From positions 6,449,477-6,513,476 of the forward strand of contig WARS01000043.1 in assembly GCA_008933995.1 (NCBI GenBank): 64,000 bases of DNA, given 5' to 3'. Below the pieces are notes generated by a model. The model made no database searches. It had not been told where the DNA came from and saw nothing but the letters and a program-made list of their open reading frames with translations. The translations under genes were made by a program, and so were the position numbers. The stretch's first letter is position 1, and each line of letters opens with the position of its first letter. Origin of the DNA: Datnioides undecimradiatus. Its lineage: Eukaryota > Chordata > Actinopteri > Lobotiformes > Datnioididae. Positions 39,471 through 56,064 of the stretch are shown one piece after another.

Positions 39471-40319
39471 AAGTTTCCCTCTAAAGTTGATAAAGCTCCG
39501 CAACTCCATGTGCGCTGAACGCACGCGGGGACAAAACGTGGCCAGGAGTCAGTGAGACTGTGCTGCAGAGCCTCCACACGGCCTCACGGCTCCTCTGACA
39601 CCCGCTCTCCTTGCTGCTGCGATTGATAATTAGCTAATTTCGTGTACGGATCACTGATTTGAAATGTTTTCCGTGTTTAAATCTTCTACAGACGACAACA
39701 CGGCGGCTCAGCGGCGCAGACACTTAAACAATCAAAACTCCCAGATCTTCATCAGGTGGAGGCTTCAGCTCACAGCTCACAGCCTGCTGACGACCCGGGG
39801 TCAGAGGAGGGCCCAACGAGGTTTCTGAGGCGGCAATTCATTCTCCAGTTGAGATATAGATAAGTCTGTGCACACAAACACTCACACAAGGTTACACACA
39901 TATATAGTAATGCATTTAGGAGTACAGTCACTCTATTGAACAGCATCTAAACCTGAGAATAAAAACAAATGTATGAATTTTAATTCTTTTAAACTATTAT
40001 TGTGAACAACTCAGTTTTTGTCTGTGAGGAAACTCATTTCAGGTCTCACCTGAGCTCAGGTCAGGTCTTTGTCTCATAATCAGCATTAATATAAAAACCC
40101 AGAATCAATCAAACGTACTGTTGGATGGCAACAGAGGGGAAAGAGTAACAGCAGTAACAGAATATTGTGTTGTTTTTTGTTGTGTAATGCATTTTAATGG
40201 TGTTGTTTTAAATTGTGCTTATGTTTATTTCTGTTGTTTTGACTCTGAATACTGTTTTATTGTTTAACAGCTGGTTAAACTTCCCTGTGCAGCTCCTTCA
40301 GTCCGTGTCTTTCTATGAA

Positions 40320-40460
40320 ACGTGTTTCACGCAGTGAGCTGCCGCTCCGGCCGCCTGCAGTTCCGCTGCCGGCCGCAGGGGGCGGTGACGCGTCTACAGG
40401 CTGATTTGTCAACCGAAGAAGAAGGATGAGCAGTAGAAGAAGACGCAGATCGCGTTGACG
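40320..40460 (+). promoter_or_regulatory. CpG-rich probable promoter/5'UTR of the tmed9-like gene
   Basis: A GC- and CpG-rich block lies directly upstream of the first ATG, in contrast with the AT-rich DNA on its left. It contains GGCCGCAGGGGGCGG at 40371-40385, which resembles both a GC box and a CTCF core (about 10 of 12 positions). No TATA box is visible, as is usual for housekeeping genes. The transcription start cannot be placed from sequence alone. Confidence 0.45.
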
Positions 40461-42476
40461 ATGATGAAGATGAAGTCGTGTGTGTTTACAGTTTTACTCC
40501 TCAATATTTTCTTTGACTCCGTCGCTTCTTTGTATTTTAACATCGCGGACTCAGACCGGAAATGCTTCATACAGGAAGTCCCGGATGACACGGTGGTTAT
40601 CGGTGAGTTTCTAGCGGGATGACACTTCCTGTTAGCATCAACTTTAGCCAAGTTAACTTTAGCTAAGCTAACTTTAGCTAACAGGCTAACCTGTTGGGGC
40701 CTCCGGAGGGGCAGCTGATCCACTGAGCTGTTGAGTTTCATCGTGAAGCAAATGTTTAATTTATTAATTTTAATGTAAAGCTTCAGTCCGAGAGGAACTC
40801 ATGAATGATCAGAACTGTCCGGACACAGCCGAGGATCTCAGTTACTGTCTGAGTCTCTTCCTGTTCTACATCATGTTTTACTGTAATTATATTTATTTTA
40901 TTTTTCAGTCCTGGTGAGGTCCGGTGTTTGCAGGAGAAACGGGGAAAAGCTTTAAAACGAAATCAAACGAGATGAAAGCGAATAAAAACAGGACTCGGCA
41001 GTTTCAGAATCAAACATCTGGTCCCTGTTATTGGAGGAAACACAGCCAATATTCATTTTATATTCATTTAATACCCTTTGTATAACTTAAGGTGCAAACC
41101 ATTGTATTAACGCAGCTGCCTGATACATGTGTCACATGACCGTTGGTCTCCGGTGATTCATGCCCTCCTGGCTGTGAGGAGCATTGCATCAATAAACTAT
41201 AGAGAAACTGACTCATGCAGATATTTTAATCAACAAAACTCTAAATGAGGCATGAAGAATAAAGTGATCTTTCAGTTTTATACTTATATTTATTCCACAT
41301 ATGTTTTTTATGTAATTCTGATGATGAAAGTCTGTTTTTGTGGTTTCTGGTTATGAACTGATGCAGTTCAAAGGAAACAAGCCTCAGACCGACCACCTTT
41401 AACAGAGGAGCAGATGTTCAAACTGAATACGCTGCAAAACACAGCTTTATTCATTATATCACATATGATAATCAACGTGATCATAACATGATAACATTAT
41501 AAAACAAACAGATCTCTTTTTATTTTAGTAACTTAAAGACTGATACGCCCGATTTAATCATGTTAAATCAACAGTTTCTACCATTTGTGTCCATCACAGG
41601 AGCTGCAGGACAGTAAGTGACTGGTAATCAGCTACAGCTGCAAGTGGTTCAGATACTAAACTGAGAAACTGAAGGACTTTATTTAAATAAGAGCAGAACG
41701 TGTTTACAAAAGAAAAGAAGCTAAGAAACAGTTTCCATCAGAAGAAGAAGCTGCAGGTCTTTAGTCCAAATTAAGACCCTCAGAGTTTCCTTTGGTCTGG
41801 ACCTGGACCCGGAGCCTGACGAGTTATGTTGCACTGATATCAGGACACAGTGTGGCTGTGTTTGCCTCTGCAGGTAACTTCCAGATTCAGCTGCCTGATA
41901 AACAGCAGGACGACCTCGGGATGTTTGTTGAAGCCAAAGGTCCCGATGACAAGGTTCGTCTGGATTGAACCGAACATTCAGCTGAATCATCTCTGAGTTT
42001 GACACTGAGCAGCTCGTGATTCATGACTCAGCAGGATTTCACTCTGTGTCCCCTCAGCTGGTTCTGTCTCAGCGACTCGGCTCGAAGGGAAGCTTCAAGT
42101 TCACGTCCCAGAAACCAGGAGGACACCAGATCTGCCTGCAGCCAGACTCCTCACAGCGCCCCCCGTCTGCAGGAGGCGTGCTGGTGAGAAGACTTGTTTT
42201 TGCTGTCCAGCGTTACGATACACGCACAATATGTGATGCTGCGAGCAAGGCGACTAGAGATCAGTCACTTTCCCTCCTTCTGAACTTCCTGTTGTGTGTG
42301 TGTGTGTCTGTGCAGATGGTTCACCTTGACATCAGAGTGGGCGAACGCACAAACAACTACACTGAACTCATCAGCAGGGACAAACTGACGGAGCTGCAGC
42401 TGAGAGTGCGACAGCTGAGCGAGCAGGTCCTGCAGATCCAGAAGGAGCAGAACTACCAGAGGGTCAGTCCCACGCT

Positions 42477-42512
<36 letters not shown>

Positions 42513-42698
42513 CATCAGACATAGCTGAAGCATAATCAGCCGCCATGTTTGAACCCTGTGCGTCTATTTGTTTCGCAGCTCAGAGAGAAACGTTTCCGTG
42601 ACGTCAACAACAACACCAGCATGTGGATCTTCTGGTGGCCCGTCGTCCGCTCGCTCTACGTGGTCGCCATCATCATCTGGGTGACCAACTCCTGGTAA
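40461..42698 (+). CDS. p24-family cargo receptor, divergent tmed9-like paralog without cytosolic tail
   Basis: Five coding exons: 40461-40602, 41874-41953, 42058-42183, 42316-42462 and 42579-42698, all with GT-AG borders, giving 204 residues. Order: signal peptide (residues 1-23, cleavage probably before LYFNI), GOLD domain with the two disulfide cysteines (KCFI and HQICL), coiled coil ([12 protein letters not shown] through [10 protein letters not shown]), one membrane span, stop. p24 proteins cycle between ER and Golgi as receptors in COPI/COPII vesicles. Splice phases match tmed9 at 47.8 kb exactly, and both signal peptides contain SCV and VLLLN, so I infer a tandem duplicate of tmed9. Odd points: exon 2 is 21 bases (7 codons) shorter than in tmed9, and the protein ends VTNSW just after the span, so the usual FF and KKxx tail is absent. 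NNT and NTS glycosylation sequons precede the span. The start is the first of two adjacent ATGs, in a CpG-rich 5' region. Family assignment is sure; orthology to a named TMED gene is not. Confidence 0.88.
42480..42511 (+). repeat. (GT)n microsatellite in intron 4 of the tmed9-like gene
   Basis: Sixteen GT units, 18 bases after the exon 4 donor. Confidence 0.95.
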
Positions 42699-43463
42699 CA
42701 CTTCCTGTTGTCTCGCTGACTGTGGGGGACTGATGTGTCCTGCTCCTCTCTGTTGTTCTGCTTCACTCGGTCAGACTTAAACAGCTGCTGATGACCTTTT
42801 TAATTCTGACGGAGAAGGTTTGACAGGAAACCCGGAGGGGCGACGTCGACCAAACTGATTTATCATTATATCACGAGTTTCAACATGTGGCAGCAATAAC
42901 TTCTGCTGATATAACCCATAAATGAACGTGTGAACTCTGATCAGTGGCAGCAGCTAATTTAAAGTGTCGAGTTTCTTTTAGACGCTCGTAGACGGTGATC
43001 GTCCTGAACCGCCTCAGTTAGTTGACAGCTGGGCAGCAGAGACGCTCTGTGAGACCCTCTGAGGCTGCTTTGACTCTGCAGTTTCTATATTTGAGGATCT
43101 TTTTCATTCACTTTTGATTTTAGGTGTGAGTTGTGACTTTTATGATGTTTTTATTAATGAAAACGTTTATTTCAGCTCAGATCTTATTTACAGAACTTCG
43201 TCCATCATATTAAAATGCCTTTGTCTCAGCGATGGCACAGTTTGTAGAAAACCAGCAGCAGAGAACATTCACAGGATATTCCAACATATTGACTTTATCT
43301 TATTTACTCTGTAATATGAAAATAGAGTGTGTATTTACAGGATGCTGCTCTGTTTCAGGTGATGTCATCGATCTTTCTGCGTCAGTAAACTTTGGACCTA
43401 CGAGGGAAAAGACAGCAAAAGGGACAAACTTTAATTCCAGATGAAGCAGAATAATTGAGGTGT
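42699..43463 (+). other. Probable 3'UTR of the tmed9-like gene
   Basis: No coding sequence. ATTAAA at 43209-43214 is a candidate poly(A) signal. No exon encoding a p24 tail (HLKSFF-like) is seen here. Confidence 0.4.
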
Positions 43464-43469
43464 TTTATT
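43464..43469 (-). terminator. Polyadenylation signal of tmem216
   Basis: AATAAA on the minus strand lies about 37 bases past the tmem216 stop codon. It is the first such signal after the gene and would leave a 3'UTR of roughly 60 bases. A longer alternative 3' end is possible. Confidence 0.5.
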
Positions 43470-43505
43470 GAAGCGAGAGCCCCCAAATCAGACGCCAGGA
43501 CGGGC

Positions 43506-46357
43506 TCACCTGGAGAAGGTGGATATGGAGAGGAGTCCGAGCAGGAACTCGAGGCCGTAGAAGCAGAGCAGGATGGCGTTGAGCAGGAACTCGAGGCGCA
43601 GCACGAACGTCTGCAGCAGCAGGTAGTAAACAGCGAGCGCCGCGCAGGGAAACAGGGTGAAGAGCGACACGCACGACACCAGAGAGCGCTCACACAGGTT
43701 CCCCTTCCAACCTGCACACAGCACACAGCACACAGCGCTGAGGTCATCACCGCTCTGTCACATGACCCTGTCACATGACTCTGTCAGCCTGTGACCACTC
43801 ACAGTCTGAACACTAACTGGCTACATTTGACCGCCTGTTCACACCAGACGCCGTTTCTGAAAACCTGGAGGAACCTGATCGTTTTCAGATGTAGCCAGCT
43901 GAGTGTCACATGATCTCTGAGGCCGTTTACTGTCCAGTCAGACACCACCTGCAGCTCTGAGCTCAGCAGATTTTAGGATTTCTGTCACATGTTGTTTGAT
44001 CCTCTGGCCTGAAATGTGGCATCACTTTGATTCAGTGTCTGAACTGAAGTGAAACGGTTCTGCTGCGGTCCAGTCGTTCTCCTCGCCCTCGCTGGGAAGC
44101 GTCACACAGCTGAGGAGAATCCAGACAGTAAAGGCACAAGCTGTATTTTTATTCCCTCCAAAAAGCCTTGGACCTTAAACCTGCAGCCTGAAGAATTCTC
44201 TCAGCACTTAATGATCACTCATTTTTAACTAACTACCAATAAACTGTAACGTGCGCTGCGTCACCTGCTGCTCTGCGCAGCTCTTCCTAAATGAAGTTAA
44301 CGCGTGACAACTGAACTCTGCGTCCGACTCCAGGCTCCACTGCAGTTCATGCACTGAACTGACTTCCATCCCATAATGACCAGTTGTCTTCAGCCCTGCA
44401 TGCATTTTGTTTGTTTTAACTTTAAATGTTCTTATTGTTGATTCATTCGTTTTTTTATTCCTGCAGCTCCTCAGTGTCAGAGCTCCAGGTGAGGAGCAGG
44501 AAACTGACTCACAACTTATCAAATCAGTGAAAAATGCAGCTGTCATCCACAAGGTGGCAGCAAAGAGCCAGACCTGTAGGCTAGTTCTGCTCATGTTCAT
44601 CCTGATGTTCTGCAGACCAGTTAGTGATAGTCACACAGAGCAGAGAGTGTTTCTGTTTCCACCTGTCTCAGCGTTTCTCACCGTAAAAGATCCTGAGAGT
44701 CTCCAGACCGAGGAAGAGCAGCAGCAGGACCACATCCAGAACCAGATTATCTGACGGGTAGGGGAGTAAAATCCCTGCGCACACACAAACAATTCATGTG
44801 TCAACACAGCCAAAGGTTTTTATGTTTAGCATGAAGTCAAGATGAAGGAGGAGGTTGTTTGTCCTGTTGGGACACACACACTGATTCCTCGCCTCCAAAG
44901 AGTTTGGGTTTCCAGGAGTGAAGCATTTCACTTATTTGGACTCTGTGACGACACCTGGAGCTGCAGTTTCATTCTCATATGCCAGACACACTTTACTGTG
45001 TCTGATGTGCCGAAGATTTGTATGAACGTATTCTGAGTACGATATATGCACTTTGTTTTCAAGCCTGTGCTTTTTGTTGATTCATTTAAATGAATAAAAG
45101 GTGAAATTGTGAATGTTTGAACTTGGTTTTTGTTGCAGATGTGCAGCTCTTTACAGAGCAAACCACGGATTCATGGAGAAAAGAATCAGCAGCTGCAGAA
45201 CGACTACAAGACAGACAGGAGTGATAGTACTCGAGTACTGCAGAGCTGAAGTATTGAAACAGAGGTCACATGACACACCATCAGCAGGATGCTGTCAGTC
45301 ATAAATACAGAAACCAGCTCCGTCTGATGACGTGTGACGGCAGCTTCTTACACACCTTTATAGATGAACATGAGGATCTCAGCCACGTAGAAGGCAGCAA
45401 AGTACCACCTGTTCAGGTAGAGGAGGACCTGCAGAGAGGTGGATGAGAGCTGGGGAAGAGCAAGTCAAGGACAACACACGCACACACTCAGCCTGAGCAG
45501 CAGGGTCAGTTTGATGTAAAGGATACGATTGGTTGGCTGCCTGCAGACAGAAAGAATGAAACAAACATGATCACTGCAGCAGTCTGGGGCGTTCAGACGA
45601 TCACGTGACTTTACTATAGTGACAGGATATTAAAACAGGAAAAGACATTTATGCAATATCACGAGTTTATGACACATTATATTTCATGAACACCTCGTAT
45701 GATCTGTGGCTTAATAGTGTCTTTTACTTTGTCATGTATGCTTTTAGTTTTTTTAGCTTTTGCTCTTCTTGCATATTGTTAAATAGTTTTAATCTCTGTC
45801 AAATCTTCCTTCATTATTCAGCTCATTCATTCTTTTTTATTACCGTGTGTGTGTTTGTGTTGTTTTGCACCGTGAAGCTCTTTGTGTTACATTTTGTTTG
45901 CTTTATAAATAAAAAGTCTGATTGACTAAAGTACAGGACAATAATAATGTATTATGTGCACCCAGCGCTGATTAGCAGTTTGAGGTGTGATAAAACATGT
46001 AACTTAAACAGCGTTGTTAGTAACGAGTTTTTGTACCAGTAACGAGTTTTTGTACCAGTAACGTTAGCAGAGGCTTTAACTGTCCGACAAGAACAAACTG
46101 TCGGTGTGATCCTCGGTTTTGCGATCGTAACCTCACATTAATATTAAATCCCGTTAGCTACATTTAACTTAGCTAACCTGCTAACGCTGCCTGAGTCCTG
46201 AGCTAACATCGGCTAACGGCTAAACCTTTTTGATTCTGTCACAGTTTCCTGGGAAGCGTCTGAATGGTAGAAACATTTATGCAAACTTTACTTACATGCC
46301 TTTGTGACATGTAACGAGCACAAAGGCACAAAGAATCTGAGACTTACCTGGCGCCAT
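43506..46357 (-). CDS. tmem216: Transmembrane protein 216, ciliary transition-zone tetraspan protein
   Basis: Read on the minus strand, three exons are clear: 45449-45356 (LSSTSLQVLLYLNRWYFAAF onward), 44774-44682 (ILLPYPSDNLVLDVV onward) and 43711-43506 (GWKGNLCERSL to the stop after STFSR). They match vertebrate TMEM216 closely, for example KGNLC, YYLLLQT and VLRLE, and make four hydrophobic spans. TMEM216 is part of the MKS/B9 complex at the transition zone of cilia; human mutations cause Joubert and Meckel syndromes. A first exon at 46357-46348 is proposed from ATGGCGCCAG followed by a strong GTAAGT donor (human also has MAP), but its phase does not fit the next exon, so a short linking exon is probably missed in the 0.9-kb intron. 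A polyadenylation signal at 43464-43469 would give a very short 3'UTR. The gene lies tail-to-tail with the tmed9-like gene and head-to-head with tmed9. Confidence 0.85.
46018..46062 (+). repeat. Short tandem duplication, 21-bp unit
   Basis: AGTAACGAGTTTTTGTACC occurs twice head to tail, then AGTAACG begins again. It lies in the proposed first intron of tmem216. Confidence 0.9.
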
Positions 46358-46434
46358 GTTTGATTGCCATGGAAACGGCTTGGGAAGGGAAGTGCATCTT
46401 CTTCGTGTTGAGTTAAAGCGTAGCTGAGACGTTG

Positions 46435-46448
46435 TTGCCCTCTAGTGG
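46435..46448 (-). promoter_or_regulatory. CTCF-like site at the tmem216 5' end
   Basis: Minus strand CCACTAGAGGGCAA, 13 of 14 positions, about 80 bases upstream of the proposed tmem216 ATG. Confidence 0.45.
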
Positions 46449-46682
46449 CTGCATGTAATACTACTACTATTACTACTGTTACCACTTGTCAGTGTATGAA
46501 CACTATGTTACAAGTAAAAATTCTAATTCTGTAGGAATACCCACTACAGATAAATAACGACAATACAGTTACATTATTAATCACTGACCTGACTACCATA
46601 TTTACCCAGGAAACATGATGGAGTAGAAGTACTTTTTGTTATTATAGTGTGTCTTTAGAATGTTTTTGGCATTTTTCCTACT

Positions 46683-46718
<36 letters not shown>

Positions 46719-47530
46719 CTTTATTAATCCCGAGGGAAATTCAGGTATCCAGCAGCAGTGTAAAATTGTAAAATTGTGCAAACACTTGCATGTATAAAAA
46801 ACTTCAGAAAATGGAGAAATGAAATAAAGTAAAAATAGACATAAAATTAAATAAAGTTAAATAAAGTTAAATAAAATAAGGTGGAGTAGGGTAAAGGAAA
46901 TTAAGAGTATATAAAGATACATACACATACACATACTTATAAATATGCATATACATGTACATATACCATATACATCTACATCTACATATATACACACACA
47001 CACACACACCAGCATATACACACATGCTCACAAACATATGGTGGGGCTGTGGTGAATGTTTGGTGGTGTCCATCATGAGCACAGTCCAGGACAGTCCTCA
47101 CTGGGAGGAGCTGAAGAGCCGTATGTCCTGCAGGACAAACGACTTCCTCAGCCTGTCAGTGGAGCAGGTCAGAGACAGCAGCTGCCACTGAATGTGCTCC
47201 TCTGCGTGGTGATGATGTCATGCAGAGGGTGATGGACATTGTCCAGGATGAGCAGAAGCTTGCTGAGGGTCCTTTTCTCTGCCACAGATGTAAGAGAGTC
47301 CAGCTCTGCAGCCACTACAGAGCCGGGCCTCCTCACCAGTTTGTCCAGCCGTGAAGCGTCCCTCTTCTTAATGCTTCCTCCCCAGCACACCACAGCACAG
47401 AAGAGGACACTCAGTGACAGTGACAGTGACAGTCTGGTAGAACATCTGCAGCAGCTTCTGGCAGATGTTAAAAGACCTCAGCCTTCTCAGGAAGTAGAGC
47501 TCCGTCCCTTCCTGTAGAGCACTTCTGTGT
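46683..47530 (-). mobile_element. 5'-truncated non-LTR retrotransposon (LINE), 3' end with (GATA)n tail
   Basis: The minus strand at 47393-47169 encodes VCWGGSIKKRDASRLDKLVR and later VAEKRTLSKLL and HPLHDII, the typical C-terminal end of the reverse-transcriptase polyprotein of fish LINEs. A further upstream piece (LDWSANTEVLYRKG) lies in another frame after a short GACAGT expansion. The 3' side contains the fish-LINE word CTTTATTAATCCC and ends in a (TATC)n array at 46683-46717. Only about 0.85 kb of the element is left, so it is a dead-on-arrival 5' truncation. It lies in the intergenic gap between tmem216 and tmed9. I place it in the L2/CR1/Rex-like group without firm clade assignment. 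Confidence 0.7.
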
Positions 47531-47731
47531 TAGCTGACCAGTCCAGTTTATTGTCTATTTGATAACGGCTGCAGGGAGGAACCAGGAAAGGCAGTGGAAG
47601 GATACAGTATCTTCAGTGGTACATTAGCTTTTTGTCTGGTTGTTCTGTTATTACCTTACAAAAAACAAACAAAACCAACCACATTTAATGCATGTTAATG
47701 CAACATCATGAAAAGGCCCAAAGTCCTAAGA

Positions 47732-47817
47732 ACTACAACACCCAGCATTCTCTCACAGCGCGCTGATTGGCCAGACTTCAGCGATGGTTTACGTGGCATT
47801 GCTGGGTCCGCGCATGC
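47732..47817 (+). promoter_or_regulatory. tmed9 core promoter with ZNF143, CCAAT and NRF1-like sites
   Basis: Within 115 bases upstream of the tmed9 ATG there are three recognisable housekeeping-promoter words. ACTACAACACCCAGCATTC at 47732-47750 fits the ZNF143/STAF consensus with few mismatches. TGATTGG at 47764-47770 is an inverted CCAAT box (NF-Y). GCGCATGC at 47810-47817 is an NRF1-like half. No TATA box is seen. The spacing and order suggest a real promoter rather than chance. Confidence 0.6.
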
Positions 47818-47844
47818 TCAGTCGAGCTCCCTCCCGGCAGGAAG

Positions 47845-50383
47845 ATGGTGTCTGTCAGGATGCGGTCGTGTGTGTTGTCAGTTTTACTTCTGAACGTGTT
47901 TTACAGCGTCGTCTCCTCTTTGTACTTTCACATCGGAGAGACCGAGAAGAAATGTTTCATAGAGGAAATCCCAGACGAGACGATGATTATCGGTGAGTGT
48001 CAGAGGCGGCAGGATATCGCGGTGCTAATGCTAACTGCTAGCTCACCAACTTCAGCTAGTTAGCTAATCGGCTAACTGAGCTCAAGTTGTCTTAGGTGCC
48101 TGCAGAAAGTCCGCCCAGACGGCTCTGAACTGCAGAGGACCAGGTTTACAGCCCGGGAAACAAACACAGCCTGACTCGGAGCAGCTAATTAGGAACCACT
48201 TAATTACTTTTTACATATTTTCACTGTTTCTCAGCGTTAAATCGTAACACTGGCCCGATTTATACTGCGAAATGTTCACAGCGGTGCGTTTCTGTCTGCT
48301 TTGGTTGTGTTACCATGATATTCAGGCACCATCAGGGAAACTGTGTTCATGCTTACGCTCCTGACTCATAACTGACAAGGTGTTCATGAGCCCTTCTGAC
48401 CTAATGTGACGTGTTAATGTACCTGATGGTCACCTGTTTGTTTGAGAACAGCGCGAGCCGTTTGAATGACAGTGACAGGAAGTGACTGCAATACCTCACG
48501 TCAGAACTGAGCGAGATGACCTGAAGCCTGCAGCCACGATAAGAGCCTGCTCACTTCTGTAATGTCAGAGAGAAGGCGCTTCAGTGTATGAGCTGAGCTG
48601 TGTGCTGATCTGTATCAGATTTAACGTGTTGACTTTTCCTGGTTGTAAAGGCTGCGTTACACTAAAGTCACGACATTAAAGTAATTTATCAAACCTGTTA
48701 AGCTGTTGTATTTCTCCCTAATCACTCTATTATACACATTATTGATTATTATTAATGAAAAATCATTAATGTCATCCCTACGTTCCCATATCAGTCAGGC
48801 TCCGCTAAGAGCTGATCTCAGGTGAATAAACCAAAATGTTTCCTTTGAAGCTGATTTGGCTCATGTCTAAATAACCAATGAGTACATTCAGGAACCTGTA
48901 ACGATGACGCACCTGTGTGTCCCTGCAGGTAACTATCGCACTCAGCTGTATGATAAACAGAGAGAGGAGTATCTGCCAGCCACTCAGGGTCTGGGGATGT
49001 TTGTGGAGGTCAAGGATCCCGATGACAAGGTGAACAAAACACTCAACAAGTTGTTCTTCATCACCTTCTTCATCGTGTCTTTGTCGTCATCAGCTCACAT
49101 TTGCATCTCGTCTGTCTCCTGCAGGTGATTCTGTCCCGGCAGTACGGCTCCGAGGGAAGGTTCACCTTCACCTCACACACACCTGGAGAGCATCAGATCT
49201 GCCTGCACTCCAACTCGTCCAAGTTTGCCCTGTTCGCCGGAGGCATGTTGGTGAGGAGACGCCACAGACAAACAGACAGGCAGACAGACAGGCGTCACAT
49301 GGCGTCTGTTAGCGCCGCAGTTTAAATTGGAGCTTTAACGTTTTTTTCTGGTTGAATGTTTGAAACTTTCCGTCATTTTCCTCCAGTTTTTTTCTTTTTG
49401 CTTCTCTTAATTCTGTGTAATTATTAAAATCCGTAACCGCAGGTTATTTACTGACAAACAGACAAACGTTTTCGTTTGACTCCATTTAAATTTCAGTTGG
49501 ATCGTGTTAAATGTCAGTGCAGGTGATGTCAGCTGCTGTCTCAGTGTTTGATCAGTAACGCGGCGCTGCTTTGTGACTTCCTGTGTTGCAGAGGGTTCAC
49601 CTGGACATCCAGGTGGGCGAACACACCAACAACTACGCTGAGATCGCTGCCAAAGACAAACTGACAGAGCTGCAGCTGAGAGTCCGACAGCTGGTGGAGC
49701 AGGTTGACCAGATCCAGAAGGAGCAGAACTACCAGCGGGTCGGTCTCATTGTGTTTTACTGTCTGTGCTCACATAACGACGATAATGATGTTTGTGTCAA
49801 AGCTGTTTGAGGATTTCAGTCATTTAATTATTTTAGATTTATGTTATAATGTAATAGTTTATGCAACGTCTTGACTTTTATAGAAAACATGTTCTTGAGT
49901 TTGCAGCTGCCTCAGAGTAACACGTTAGAGTTAGCAGCTCTGAGTCGGGCTGAGTTAGTGAGGAGCTGCAGGCAGAGCTGCATTTGTTCAGCCGTGTTCA
50001 GCCGGTTGTGCCTGATGAAAGTGCTGCACCGTGAAAACACAAATCCACACAGGAAACCAACAAACCTGGTTGAATCACCTGAATCCTGACTGAAGTTTGG
50101 TGGCGGCTGAACCGAAATGTCTGAAGTTTAAATGATGAACTGAACTATTATTGAGTTTCTTCTTCTCTTGATGTTGAAATGGTGAAATGTGAGCCGTTGC
50201 TGAGCGCCGCCTGCTGTCTGTCCTCTCCCTCAGTATCGTGAGGAGCGTTTCCGTCAGACCAGTGAGAGCACCAACCAGCGGGTCCTCTGGTGGTCCATCG
50301 TCCAGACCCTCATCCTGGTCGCCATCGGCATCTGGCAGATGAGACACCTCAAGAGCTTCTTCGAGGCCAAGAAGCTGGTGTAA
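47845..50383 (+). CDS. tmed9: p24 cargo receptor TMED9 (p24 alpha-2)
   Basis: Five coding exons: 47845-47992, 48929-49029, 49125-49250, 49592-49738 and 50234-50383; 223 residues. Signal peptide at residues 1-28, mature start [20 protein letters not shown], then GOLD domain with paired cysteines, coiled coil ([20 protein letters not shown] through [10 protein letters not shown]), one membrane span, and the tail [14 protein letters not shown]. The tail carries the FF motif (COPII binding) and terminal KKLV (COPI retrieval). The mature part is nearly identical to human TMED9, including the LYDKQREEY segment, while the signal peptide differs as expected. TMED9 cycles between ER, ERGIC and cis-Golgi in p24 hetero-oligomers. 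The next gene is b4galt7, the same order as on human chromosome 5q35.3, which supports TMED9 over TMED4. The ATG has an in-frame alternative five codons downstream (MRSCV), either of which leaves an intact signal peptide. Confidence 0.95.
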
Positions 50384-51895: not shown

Positions 51896-52499
51896 GCTGC
51901 AAGAGTTGTTAACTAAACAGTGTTGTTAAATCAACACTAAGTTTTTAGTCACTAAGCAGCAGAACTCTGCAATTATTACAACATGTTATTTTCATTAATT
52001 GATGTAAAAGCAGCATTTTAATGTGTCGTGTAGCAGCCGCTGAGCTCATGTTCTGTATTTATCAATAAGCATGAACAGTCACTGTATTCCAACAGTTTTT
52101 ATCCTCATTCCTTTTGAATTTGACTCAATTTGTTCAACAAAGTAACTTCAACTAACATACTGTGATGTTAGTAATTAAAGCAGATGTAATAGATTACACT
52201 AATTAAATGCTATTCTGTGCGTCTGTGTGTGTTTTCACGCACTTCCTGCCAACTCTGCATGAGTCTGGACACGCCACTGATTACACTGTGATAGTTCTAC
52301 TATAGTGTAGTTAGTGTAAAGTGAATTAATGTTTTACTTCTTTATCATATTTCATGAAAAACTAAAGTCAAACTGTCAAATGTTGAAATGTGTGAAACTG
52401 TAATATTTCCCTGTAAAATGTTTTAAATCTGTTGAAGTGCAAAGATAAGTAAACCGGGACAGGTTGAGTCTCTGTTAACGGTATAATATTCCTTTAATG

Positions 52500-53100
52500 T
52501 CACAGGGGCGGAACCTTTGCTACTTATCGCCGCCGTTTCCGGTCGGACTCGTTTTTAAGTCGGACCGCATTACAATCGGCTTCTGTTTGATATTTTCCAG
52601 CCTGAACTGATGCTGAAATATTCACCTTTTCTTTCTTGTTGCGTTATTTTTTTTATTTTAGCTGAACTGACGCGTCAACGGACGCTCGGTGTCGGTGATT
52701 AAAGACAAATAAAAGGAGAATATGTTGAACCCGGAGCGGCGTCGCGTCTGAACCGCTACATGCTACGTGTACACTTAGTTAGCCTGAGGGAGGCAGGTAG
52801 CTAACAGACAGACATGGATCCAGAACAAACCGGTCACAGGTTTACTTTGAGTTTTAATTTATGAGTTTACTGATCAAATGTTTACAAGCTGCCGAACAGT
52901 CGCCGGAGGGTCTGTAAGTTAGCAAAGACTTAGCACAGAGTTAGCTAACAGTTAACGGAGAGTTAGCCGACTGTTAGCATGCGGGACAGTTTGCTCTGAG
53001 ACGAGGATGGAGGATGGGCAGTCGATGAAGGCTCATTGGTTTTCTTTCTCTGTGGTTTTCTGATTTAATCTGGACCGCAAGCAGCTGTGCCATTATAAAC
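52500..53100 (+). promoter_or_regulatory. Probable promoter and 5'UTR of b4galt7
   Basis: A CpG-enriched block begins near 52,500 with an ETS-like word (TTTCCGG near 52537), and runs through TAGC-type repeats to the b4galt7 ATG. No ORF of note is present. An intron inside the 5'UTR cannot be excluded. Transcription start not placed. Confidence 0.35.
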
Positions 53101-56064
53101 ATGATGTATTCATCGAGGAGGAAACCTGTGCTCTACTTCAAAGAGGAGAGAAGGTGAGTTCGCCCTGATGTCTGTGTTTCTGTGGATTCAAAGGTGAAGT
53201 GAGTGTGTGAGTGAGTGAGATGCCACATCAGTCTGTCCTGCTTCTGTTCACATCGATAACAGATTAAAACAGTGAACATCTCTTTGTTCTAAGACACGGG
53301 ATCTCCAGAGTTCCTCATCAGGAGCCGGAGTGAGTACATGACCGAGACTGGTTTCAGCGGGGGTTCCCAAACTGTGGTTCAGGGACATTTAGACTTTATT
53401 TTAAATTCTGGCGAAGTTCATAAAGTTTCCAAAGATCCTGAATGTCTCAGGATCTTTGTTTTTTTCTGTTTGATGGACAAAATGCAGCTGTGGAAGGTTT
53501 TAAAGGACAGTTCATGTGAAAAGCAGGAGGCGGGGAAATGTTCACATGAGGTGTAGGAACACATGAATATGACACTTGGAAAACATCAAATGGAGCTGGA
53601 AGATGATATAAAACAAAAACACAACCTGTTACAGGTTTAACGGTCGTGAGGTTTCATCATCAGTCGTCCAGAATCTTAAACTGAGCTTTAGATGGTCACA
53701 GCCAAATCTCGTGGTGCATGTGTCAGTGTGGTGTTTGTGTGTCAGCAGCTTGATAAACTGACTCTGGATCAGCTGTAAGACACATTTCTGTGCTCCTCTT
53801 TTCAGCCGCTGCTTGTTTTTAACTCTGTATCTGAAGCAGATGAAGGATTTCAGTCGTCGGACGTCTGGATCTGAAGTTATCAGAGAAACAAGCTGAGCAA
53901 ACGTTAGCAGCAGCAGCAACTGGGAGAAGCTGATTGACAGGAAGACAACAACTCCCAGCATCCCACGCTGCTGCACCACGTCACATGACTGCAGCTGCTG
54001 CTGTTTTGAGACACATCAGATGTTAGTCTGTGTTGTGCTGCTCTGCAGGTCTTCTCACGGTTTTATAAACAGTGTGGGAGCCCCTGTCGTCGTCTGCCTG
54101 TGTGTTTTCACGTCTCTAACTTTGAGCAGCTGAGTCTCAGGAATATCACACATGAGGAAGTAAACGATAAAATGATGCCGACGCGGCTGCACATGATCAG
54201 TTTCACTCATTAAAATGAAGCTCGGGATACGTTTGCATCCGTTTTTGTTAGTCAGTTAACAGTTCACACAGCTAATTATCAAATTTAGGCCAAATGTGCA
54301 TCTCTGACAGTGTGAATGCAGCAGTTTCCCACATCTTCTGTCTCAATTAACTGATATTTGACGTTAGATGAAATGAAAGTACAAAAAGCTCAGTGCTGCT
54401 CTCTGTTGATTGGCTTGTCTCTGTGTCGGCTCTTTGCTGCTCCTCCTGCTGTAAGACTGATCTCTGCAGGTGACCACTGAAGCTGAGTCTAACGCCCTAA
54501 CCCTGCATGAACAGCTGTAATCGAGCTGCTGACACTAAAAGATAAAAGTGTGAATCTGTTAGAAAAAACATGGAAATATTTTTTAAAAAAACTGGAGCAA
54601 AGAAAGAAATTCATTTGAGTTAAAGAGAAACAAGAAGAGAAGTTAGGTTTTGATCTGAACTGTAGAAACGTAATGCTGTCCGACATGACAGCTCCCCAAA
54701 ACACCTGCTGCCCCCTGGTGTCTGTCTGCAGTACAGCTCATAAGCCCCGCCCCCTGGTGTCTGGCTGCAGTACAGCTCATAAGCCCCGCCCCCTGGTGTC
54801 TGGCTGCAGTACAGCTCATAAGCCCTGCCGTCTGGTGTCTGGCTGCAGTACAGCTCATAAGCCCTGCCGTCTGGTGTCTGGCTGCAGTGTCAGCTCATAA
54901 GCCCCGCCCCCTCCCTGTCAGCAGATGGTTCCTCATCTCAGCTTGTTCTCATCACACTGATGTTTGTTTAACTGATCATTTCTCTGATCAGATCAGTTTG
55001 AATCAGTTATTGATGGTGAGAAAAGGGGTTGTGGCTTCATGATTGACAGCTAAAGTGGGCGGGAACTCGATACAGCGGCTCCACGCCTCTGATCACTGCT
55101 GCACAGACATCAAAGCTTCTTGTAGAAAGTGGAGATGTGGCTGCCATCTTTGTTTGCAGCCTTTGGTTTTGGATGTTGTTGCTGTGTGGCTGCATGATTT
55201 TGTGTGTGTGTGTTCATTCAGGCTCTATTTGAATATGTTTAATGTAGTCAGGGTTCAGTTCTCCGAGGCGGCGGCGTCACTCGTCTCTCGCTGCTCTGTG
55301 TGTTCACAGGTTCCTGTCTGGGAAGTGTACGGTGTACAAGTTGTTCGGCCTCTGCATGGTGCTGCTGCTCGTCTCGCTGCTCTGGCTTCAGCTCAGCTGT
55401 TCAGGTGACATGTCCGCCACTGTGCATGAAGGCAAACGCTCCCCGCAGCAGCAGCAGCAGCCACCGCCGCCACCATGCGCAGCTGACAGTCAGGCATCTA
55501 TGGCGGACGACCTGTCCTGGGGTCCTCACAAACTGGCCCTCATCGTCCCCTTCAGAGAGCGCTTCGAGGAGCTGCTGGTGTTTGTTCCCTTCATGCACGC
55601 GTTCCTCAACAAGAAGAAGATCCGGCACAAGATCCTCATCATCAACCAGGTGGATCATTACAGGTGAGGAGGGAGGAGTCACCTGCCCAGGTGTGCGTCT
55701 GCAGAGAGAACGCTGTTTCATTTAAAGCACACAGTTTGTGTCACAACCTGCTTCTCTCTGCTCACTGATGACGTCACTGCCAGGTTCAACCGAGCGTCTC
55801 TGATCAACGTGGGTCACCTGGAGAGCGGGAACGACACGGACTACCTGGCGATGCACGACGTGGACCTGCTGCCCCTGAACGATGCGCTGGACTACGGCTT
55901 CCCTGAGGAGGGACCGTTCCACGTGGCCTCACCTGAGCTGCACCCACTGTACCACTACAAGACCTACGTGGGAGGAATCTTGCTGCTCACCAAGCAGCAG
56001 TACAGCCTGGTACTGAGCCGCCGTCCGCACGTCACTTCCTGTTTGTCTGTCAGTGTCCAGTCTG

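Follow-up and report, generated by a model that had tools for sequence, protein, structure and literature searches.

The DNA analysed here, hereafter the window, is a 64-kb stretch of the Datnioides undecimradiatus genome (assembly GCA_008933995.1, contig WARS01000043.1, positions 6,449,477–6,513,476, forward strand). It contains two p24 genes on the plus strand, namely tmed9 (47845..50383; exons 47845–47992, 48929–49029, 49125–49250, 49592–49738 and 50234–50383), and a paralog of it (40461..42698), to which tmed9 is the parent or sister gene and downstream of which it starts at about 7 kb (also given as 7.4 kb). Between the two p24 genes, on the minus strand at approximately 43490..46400, lies a gene that we take to be tmem216-like: three of its exon pieces match PF09799 (Transmemb_17), of which one exceeds the Pfam cut-off and two fall just short of it. 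A b4galt7-like gene (Glyco_transf_7 pieces) is found at 55–57 kb; TMED9 and B4GALT7 are presumably neighbours in the human genome. Seven segments from other long open reading frames (ORFs) of the window matched no Pfam family. The strongest CpG peak of the window (52301–52850, observed/expected up to 1.58) lies between tmed9 and the b4galt7-like gene, and a short repeated peptide-like unit, apparently a minisatellite, occupies an open frame at 54689–55042.

The paralog consists of five plus-strand exons, which join into 615 nt and translate as 204 codons plus TAA. Exon 1 (40461..40602), delimited by its translation and a GT donor, contains the start, the putative signal peptide and the beginning of the GOLD domain, and shows 74% nucleotide identity to exon 1 of tmed9 (blastn). 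GOLD continues in exon 2 (41874..41953), which at 80 nt versus 101 nt in tmed9 lacks 21 nt (seven residues), and in exon 3 (42058..42183), which carries the second conserved cysteine. The end of GOLD and the coiled coil are encoded by exon 4 (42316..42462), the constrained part of the gene as described below, whose region is 82% identical in nucleotide sequence to tmed9 across 162 nt. Exon 5 (42579..42698) encodes the juxtamembrane segment and the membrane span. Five in-phase exons with good splice sites had been predicted; the start and frame are indeed intact and all four introns are of the GT-AG type, but the exon 2 donor (AAG/GTTCGT) is a weak GT site.

A CpG-rich peak (40311..40610; observed/expected 1.30) overlies the start of the paralog, its value being reached by 0.24% of the 300-bp windows across the 64 kb; further peaks are present at 39.0–39.7 kb, 50.8 kb and 52.4 kb. 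The peak at the paralog start is compatible with an active promoter, although it does not prove one. An upstream ORF on the plus strand (MSSRRRRRSR plus a stop; 40426..40458) ends 2 nt 5' of the main ATG. Only a transcription start further upstream would place this ORF in the mRNA, where it could restrain translation of the paralog.

Relationship of the paralog to tmed9 and other p24 genes

Against the PF01105 (EMP24_GP25L) profile, the paralog scored 135.5 bits (curated cut-off, 25.9; E = 2.7e-39) over profile positions 2–172 of 182. The complete p24 architecture originally proposed for it was largely recovered, in that the profile match, both GOLD cysteines (equivalents of C49 and C121), the coiled coil and a membrane span are present, but seven residues of GOLD are absent relative to tmed9. 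The putative signal peptide has a hydrophobic stretch like that of tmed9 (Kyte-Doolittle values of 2.59 and 2.62 over 11 residues). Likewise, hydropathy predicts insertion of a single span near the C-terminus (1.92 versus 1.69 in tmed9 over 19 residues). The arginine within this span and the polar TNSW end argue, by inspection, against GPI anchoring.

The cryo-EM paper on human TMED9 (PMC11414720) assigns trimer formation to the coiled coil and tetramer formation to the span. It further states that E52 is required to bind frameshifted mucin 1, a misfolded cargo, that E190R broke the oligomers, that R223 and H224, with which the tail begins, bind a phosphoinositide, and that KK serves COPI binding, with a role in COPII binding implied for FF. 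In the paralog, all four core layers of the coiled coil (L161, L164, L171 and I178) and 10 of the 14 inter-trimer residues are kept, whereas 8 of the 14 residues forming hydrogen bonds in the trimer have changed (6 kept). At the functional sites of human TMED9, it carries the substitutions E52Q and E190K; Q210R is a further change relative to both tmed9 and human TMED9, and everything past W220 has been lost.

Because all four intron positions are common to the paralog and tmed9, the paralog is, judged from gene structure, a DNA-level duplicate of tmed9; a retrocopy or processed pseudogene was rejected on the grounds of the four introns at tmed9 positions and the open frame. In nucleotide sequence, the paralog is 73.0% identical to tmed9, 61.2% to tmed4 and 50.2% to tmed11 (59% amino-acid identity to tmed9), and its NG86 dS is 0.58 to tmed9 and 1.58 to tmed4 (YN00 dS to tmed9, 0.90). 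These values indicate that the duplication took place after the split between tmed9 and tmed4, probably within fishes. The protein tree also placed the paralog with tmed9, but four alternatives were not rejected at the 5% level in the AU test (0.32, 0.32, 0.07 and 0.07; 0.32 with human TMED9 and 0.07 with tmed4/tmed11 as partner). The paralog itself is neither tmed4 nor tmed11, since both lie elsewhere in the genome and have tails (loci L021 and L027, presumed to be these genes from sequence resemblance). A protein search of the 581-Mb assembly found the paralog exons at one place, all other matches being to tmed9 and tmed4, and the 3' part of the locus (42560–43460) matched only once; a haplotig or extra copies were therefore rejected. 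Pattern searches for relatives in collections of viral and genome contigs, neither of which includes fishes, gave 14 and 20 hits, none of which was confirmed.

Absence of the cytosolic tail

The paralog ends in IWVTNSW, five residues beyond the membrane span, and its last exon encodes neither FF nor KKxx. A stop at VTNSW directly after the span had been predicted; the translation confirms it (TAA), and the PF01105 match breaks off at position 172 of 182. The downstream tmed9, by its exon translation and a profile match extending over positions 2–182, carries the full tail after its span, also as predicted. None of the three frames following ATC TGG encodes a p24 tail, and the tail codons of tmed9 and tmed4 aligned to the next 60, 300 and 760 nt no better than to shuffled sequences (six tests, P = 0.30–0.68). 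A tail hidden by a frameshift or base error was accordingly rejected: with no tail codons after the stop, a miscalled base there would not account for the missing tail. When the tmed9 tail was taken together with the first 60 nt of its 3' UTR, the alignment was slightly above shuffles (P = 0.010, 0.028 and 0.036), a weak hint that the paralog end arose by deletion and that its last codons may derive from EAKKLV and the 3' UTR.

A profile search of the assembly, in which a gene without any exon above the threshold would escape, returned 27 exon matches. Besides tmed9 and the paralog, these lie at 12 other places, two of which (L029 and L030) were counted as a single gene. A tail follows the span in all 12 of the other p24 genes, tmed9 included. 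The general conservation of p24 tails assumed in the original prediction thus holds in this genome, with lengths of about 13–20 residues, although the canonical KKxx end is missing from some tailed genes, such as two genes on C18 and L026. Since the tail is encoded in the same last exon as the span in tmed9, tmed4 and tmed11, no ancestral tail exon is expected. In L029, a p24-gamma gene, the tail appears to lie in a separate downstream exon, as read without splicing.

Two further observations were made on these genes. The tmed1-like L029 (G000:C44:3220500-3227500) and L030 (G000:C100:79000-85500) are identical over 6501 nt; with one copy at a contig end and the other on a short contig, they probably represent assembly redundancy. 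L031 and L032 (G000:C18) form a tmed6-like tandem pair about 10 kb apart, one with the tail LLFLKRLFVAKSGGEEEKPRC and the other with LLVLKRLFHTDSSRPRC.

Evolutionary rate and constraint

A three-gene codon model (a custom script, with tmed4 near saturation at dS above 1.4) yielded an omega of 0.57 for the paralog (0.74 for the mature part), 0.017 for tmed9 and 0.05 for tmed4, that is, 0.57–0.74 versus 0.01–0.05. Without a clock, a separate omega for the paralog was strongly favoured (p = 1e-8) and omega = 1 was not rejected (p = 0.4). When equal synonymous rates were imposed on the sister branches, the omega of the paralog was 0.73 (bootstrap 0.53–1.13, 40 replicates; p = 0.165 versus 1). Under the same assumption of equal synonymous rates on both branches, omega differed among exon groups (p = 8e-5): tested against 1, exons 1–3 gave 0.70 (p = 0.15), exon 4 gave 0.38 (p = 0.003) and exon 5 gave 1.59 (p = 0.12). 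The comparison of dN/dS with tmed9 therefore gave a divided answer as to purifying selection: over the whole gene, omega is indistinguishable from 1 with or without the clock, but exon 4 is constrained under the clock. Without the clock, the omega of exon 4 was 0.20 and not significant (p = 0.19), and the fit for exons 1–3 was not at its optimum, the free model lying 0.53 lnL under its own special case.

The divergence extends along the whole protein. Its amino-acid branch length is 0.571, compared with 0.012 for tmed9, and 26 of the 71 sites that are identical in human TMED9 and the fish tmed9, tmed4 and tmed11 have changed in the paralog, E52 among them. Considering the sites invariant in human TMED9 and the fish tmed9 and tmed4, the paralog has changed 32 of 78 within GOLD, 15 of 57 within the coiled-coil part and 10 of 14 within the span. 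In exon 5, 24 of the 39 residues differ, against a neutral expectation of 25.4 from an exon-wise simulation that places every difference on one branch and thus overstates constraint. The hydrophobicity of the span has been held despite these changes (P = 0.041; 1337 stop-free runs of 6000 simulated).

What had been proposed, a p24 protein that has lost its sorting tail, was borne out as far as an intact five-exon gene without FF or KKxx beside an intact tmed9 is concerned, but the whole protein has loosened. The E52Q substitution, the seven-residue deletion in GOLD and the changes at 10 of 14 span sites indicate that the loss of the tail belongs to a broader relaxation of the protein and should not be taken for the selective removal of a sorting signal from a receptor conserved elsewhere.

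Neutral evolution from tmed9 was simulated in 2000 runs, and the frame remained free of stops in 0.6, 0.2 and 0.2% of them at 0.28, 0.377 and 0.475 changes per site. When the start and the eight splice dinucleotides were included, the chance of intactness fell from 0.054 at 0.07 changes per site to 0.017 at 0.10 and 0.0005 at 0.20. For the paralog branch, about 0.37 neutral changes per site are estimated. An intact frame, start and set of splice dinucleotides is thus improbable under neutral drift at the age of the paralog, and because this chance is so small, selection has maintained the paralog over most of its existence; neutrality could have begun only recently, in no more than roughly the final tenth to fifth of that time.

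Interpretation of the paralog

In the light of its sequence, the paralog is a tail-less and rapidly evolving p24-alpha gene. It resembles TMED9 (p24-alpha2; tmed9 of the window and the human protein) in exon structure, putative signal peptide, GOLD cysteines and coiled-coil core, and differs in having no tail, seven fewer GOLD residues, E52Q, Q210R and a changed span. With tmed4 and tmed11 it shares the subfamily and the exon layout, but these genes keep their tails (one being KRLKDFFIAKKLV), whereas the paralog, as the fourth of the alpha genes, has none. Reviews count a short coat-binding tail in the shared organisation of p24 proteins (PMC7045115, PMC9888432). Our literature search, conducted mostly at the level of listings and covering TMED11 in teleosts, tandem duplication of TMED9 in fish, tail-less p24 and broader p24 terms, did not find a natural tail-less p24.

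We tentatively favour, while holding it at somewhat less than an even chance, the explanation that the paralog is a retained tandem duplicate of tmed9, a diverging p24-alpha subunit that has kept its coiled coil under changed constraints. Its protein would enter the ER by way of the predicted signal peptide and be anchored in the membrane by the still-hydrophobic span, and the preserved coiled-coil core may allow it to associate with tmed9 or another p24 protein. As it lacks both FF and KKxx, this protein would reach COPII and COPI vesicles only inside mixed oligomers, where each copy would leave fewer sorting tails and might weaken retrieval or ER export, by analogy with TMED2 and TMED7 lacking FF. 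According to the study of these constructs, they have a dominant-negative effect on ER export, and the ectodomain of TMED7 suffices to meet TMED2 (PMC10946956). The paralog is similar to them as a p24 protein without an ER-export signal; however, the engineered proteins are truncations of otherwise wild-type proteins, whereas the paralog has diverged throughout.

Retention is favoured by the gene structure, the closeness to tmed9 in nucleotide identity and dS, the coiled-coil layers, the GOLD cysteines, the omega of exon 4, the low chance of intactness in the neutral simulations, the span hydrophobicity, the CpG peak and the behaviour of TMED2 and TMED7 without FF. Against it stand the whole-gene omega, which is not significantly below 1, the exon 4 result, which is not significant without the clock, and the replacement of E52 by Q. 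As to pairing with tmed9, the change E190K at the site of the disruptive E190R and the altered hydrogen-bond residues (8 of 14) suggest that assembly may be poor.

The paralog may instead be a gene in decay that recently lost its constraint, with the tail gone early and the frame still open for lack of time, which we regard as rather unlikely. The whole-gene omega, the 26 changed sites among 71 otherwise invariant ones and the near-neutral number of differences in exon 5 would all fit such a course. However, the chance of intactness falls to less than about 5% beyond about 0.07 neutral changes per site, or 0.03 when indels are assumed at 0.1 per substitution, far below the length of the branch, and exon 4 is constrained under the clock.

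It is unlikely, in our estimation, that the paralog acts as a natural dominant modulator, that is, a p24-alpha protein relying on its coiled coil only and fixed in a fish lineage. Such a protein would enter tmed9 oligomers without a tail, lower their COPI/COPII valency and thereby tune or redirect cargo; the oligomer interface would be the target of selection, and the tail and span would have been freed.

That the paralog is a neofunctionalised p24, secretory or at the surface, appears quite unlikely. Such a protein, lacking retrieval signals, would leave the early pathway and act on new ligands of the GOLD domain in the lumen or on the cell surface. Accelerated change with an open frame, the omega of about 1.6 for exon 5 under the clock and a last exon without a retrieval signal are in line with it, but exon 5 does not significantly exceed 1, and exons 1–3, which encode most of GOLD, are neither clearly constrained nor above 1.

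It is more doubtful still that the gene ends elsewhere than in its annotated last exon, with a further exon supplying a tail. The original prediction would be overturned by such an exon, and our scan of 42579–47844 for retrieval-like ends found one phase-compatible candidate. This candidate (45878..45925, plus strand), LFVLHFVCFINKKSD followed by a stop, ends in KKSD and could be joined to a donor at 42681 (TGG/GTGACC), giving ...AIIIW plus LFVLHFVCFINKKSD; alternatively, exon 5 could be skipped and exon 4 joined to exon 5 of tmed9, both being of phase 0. The phases fit for both routes, L029 appears to have its tail in a separate exon, and a loose FF...KK-like pattern occurred four times versus 0.96 expected (P = 0.01). 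However, none of these four matches resembles a p24 tail, the donors at 42681 and 42695 (CTG/GTAACA) are both weak, the acceptor tract of the candidate is broken by purines, and tmed9, tmed4 and tmed11 have span and tail in one exon. Moreover, KKxx-stop occurred once, which is at chance level (0.33 KK..stop expected; P = 0.28 for KK and 0.61 for K[KR]), so that an addition of KKSD as a retrieval signal, although conceivable, is unproven and not believed by us.

Finally, an assembly or base-calling error that conceals an ordinary tail is very improbable: only a single assembly is at hand and redundant contigs do exist in it (L029/L030), but tail codons are missing from every frame past the stop, and divergence is seen throughout the gene.

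If the paralog is a dying duplicate, it is an ordinary one. If instead a tail-less p24 has been retained, it would constitute a natural experiment on whether each p24 subunit needs a tail of its own, and the paralog may be a natural counterpart of the blocking mutants. A retained tail-less p24 would also inform how the number of tails per oligomer sets the binding of COPI versus COPII, a relationship discussed in the TMED9 cryo-EM paper (PMC11414720).
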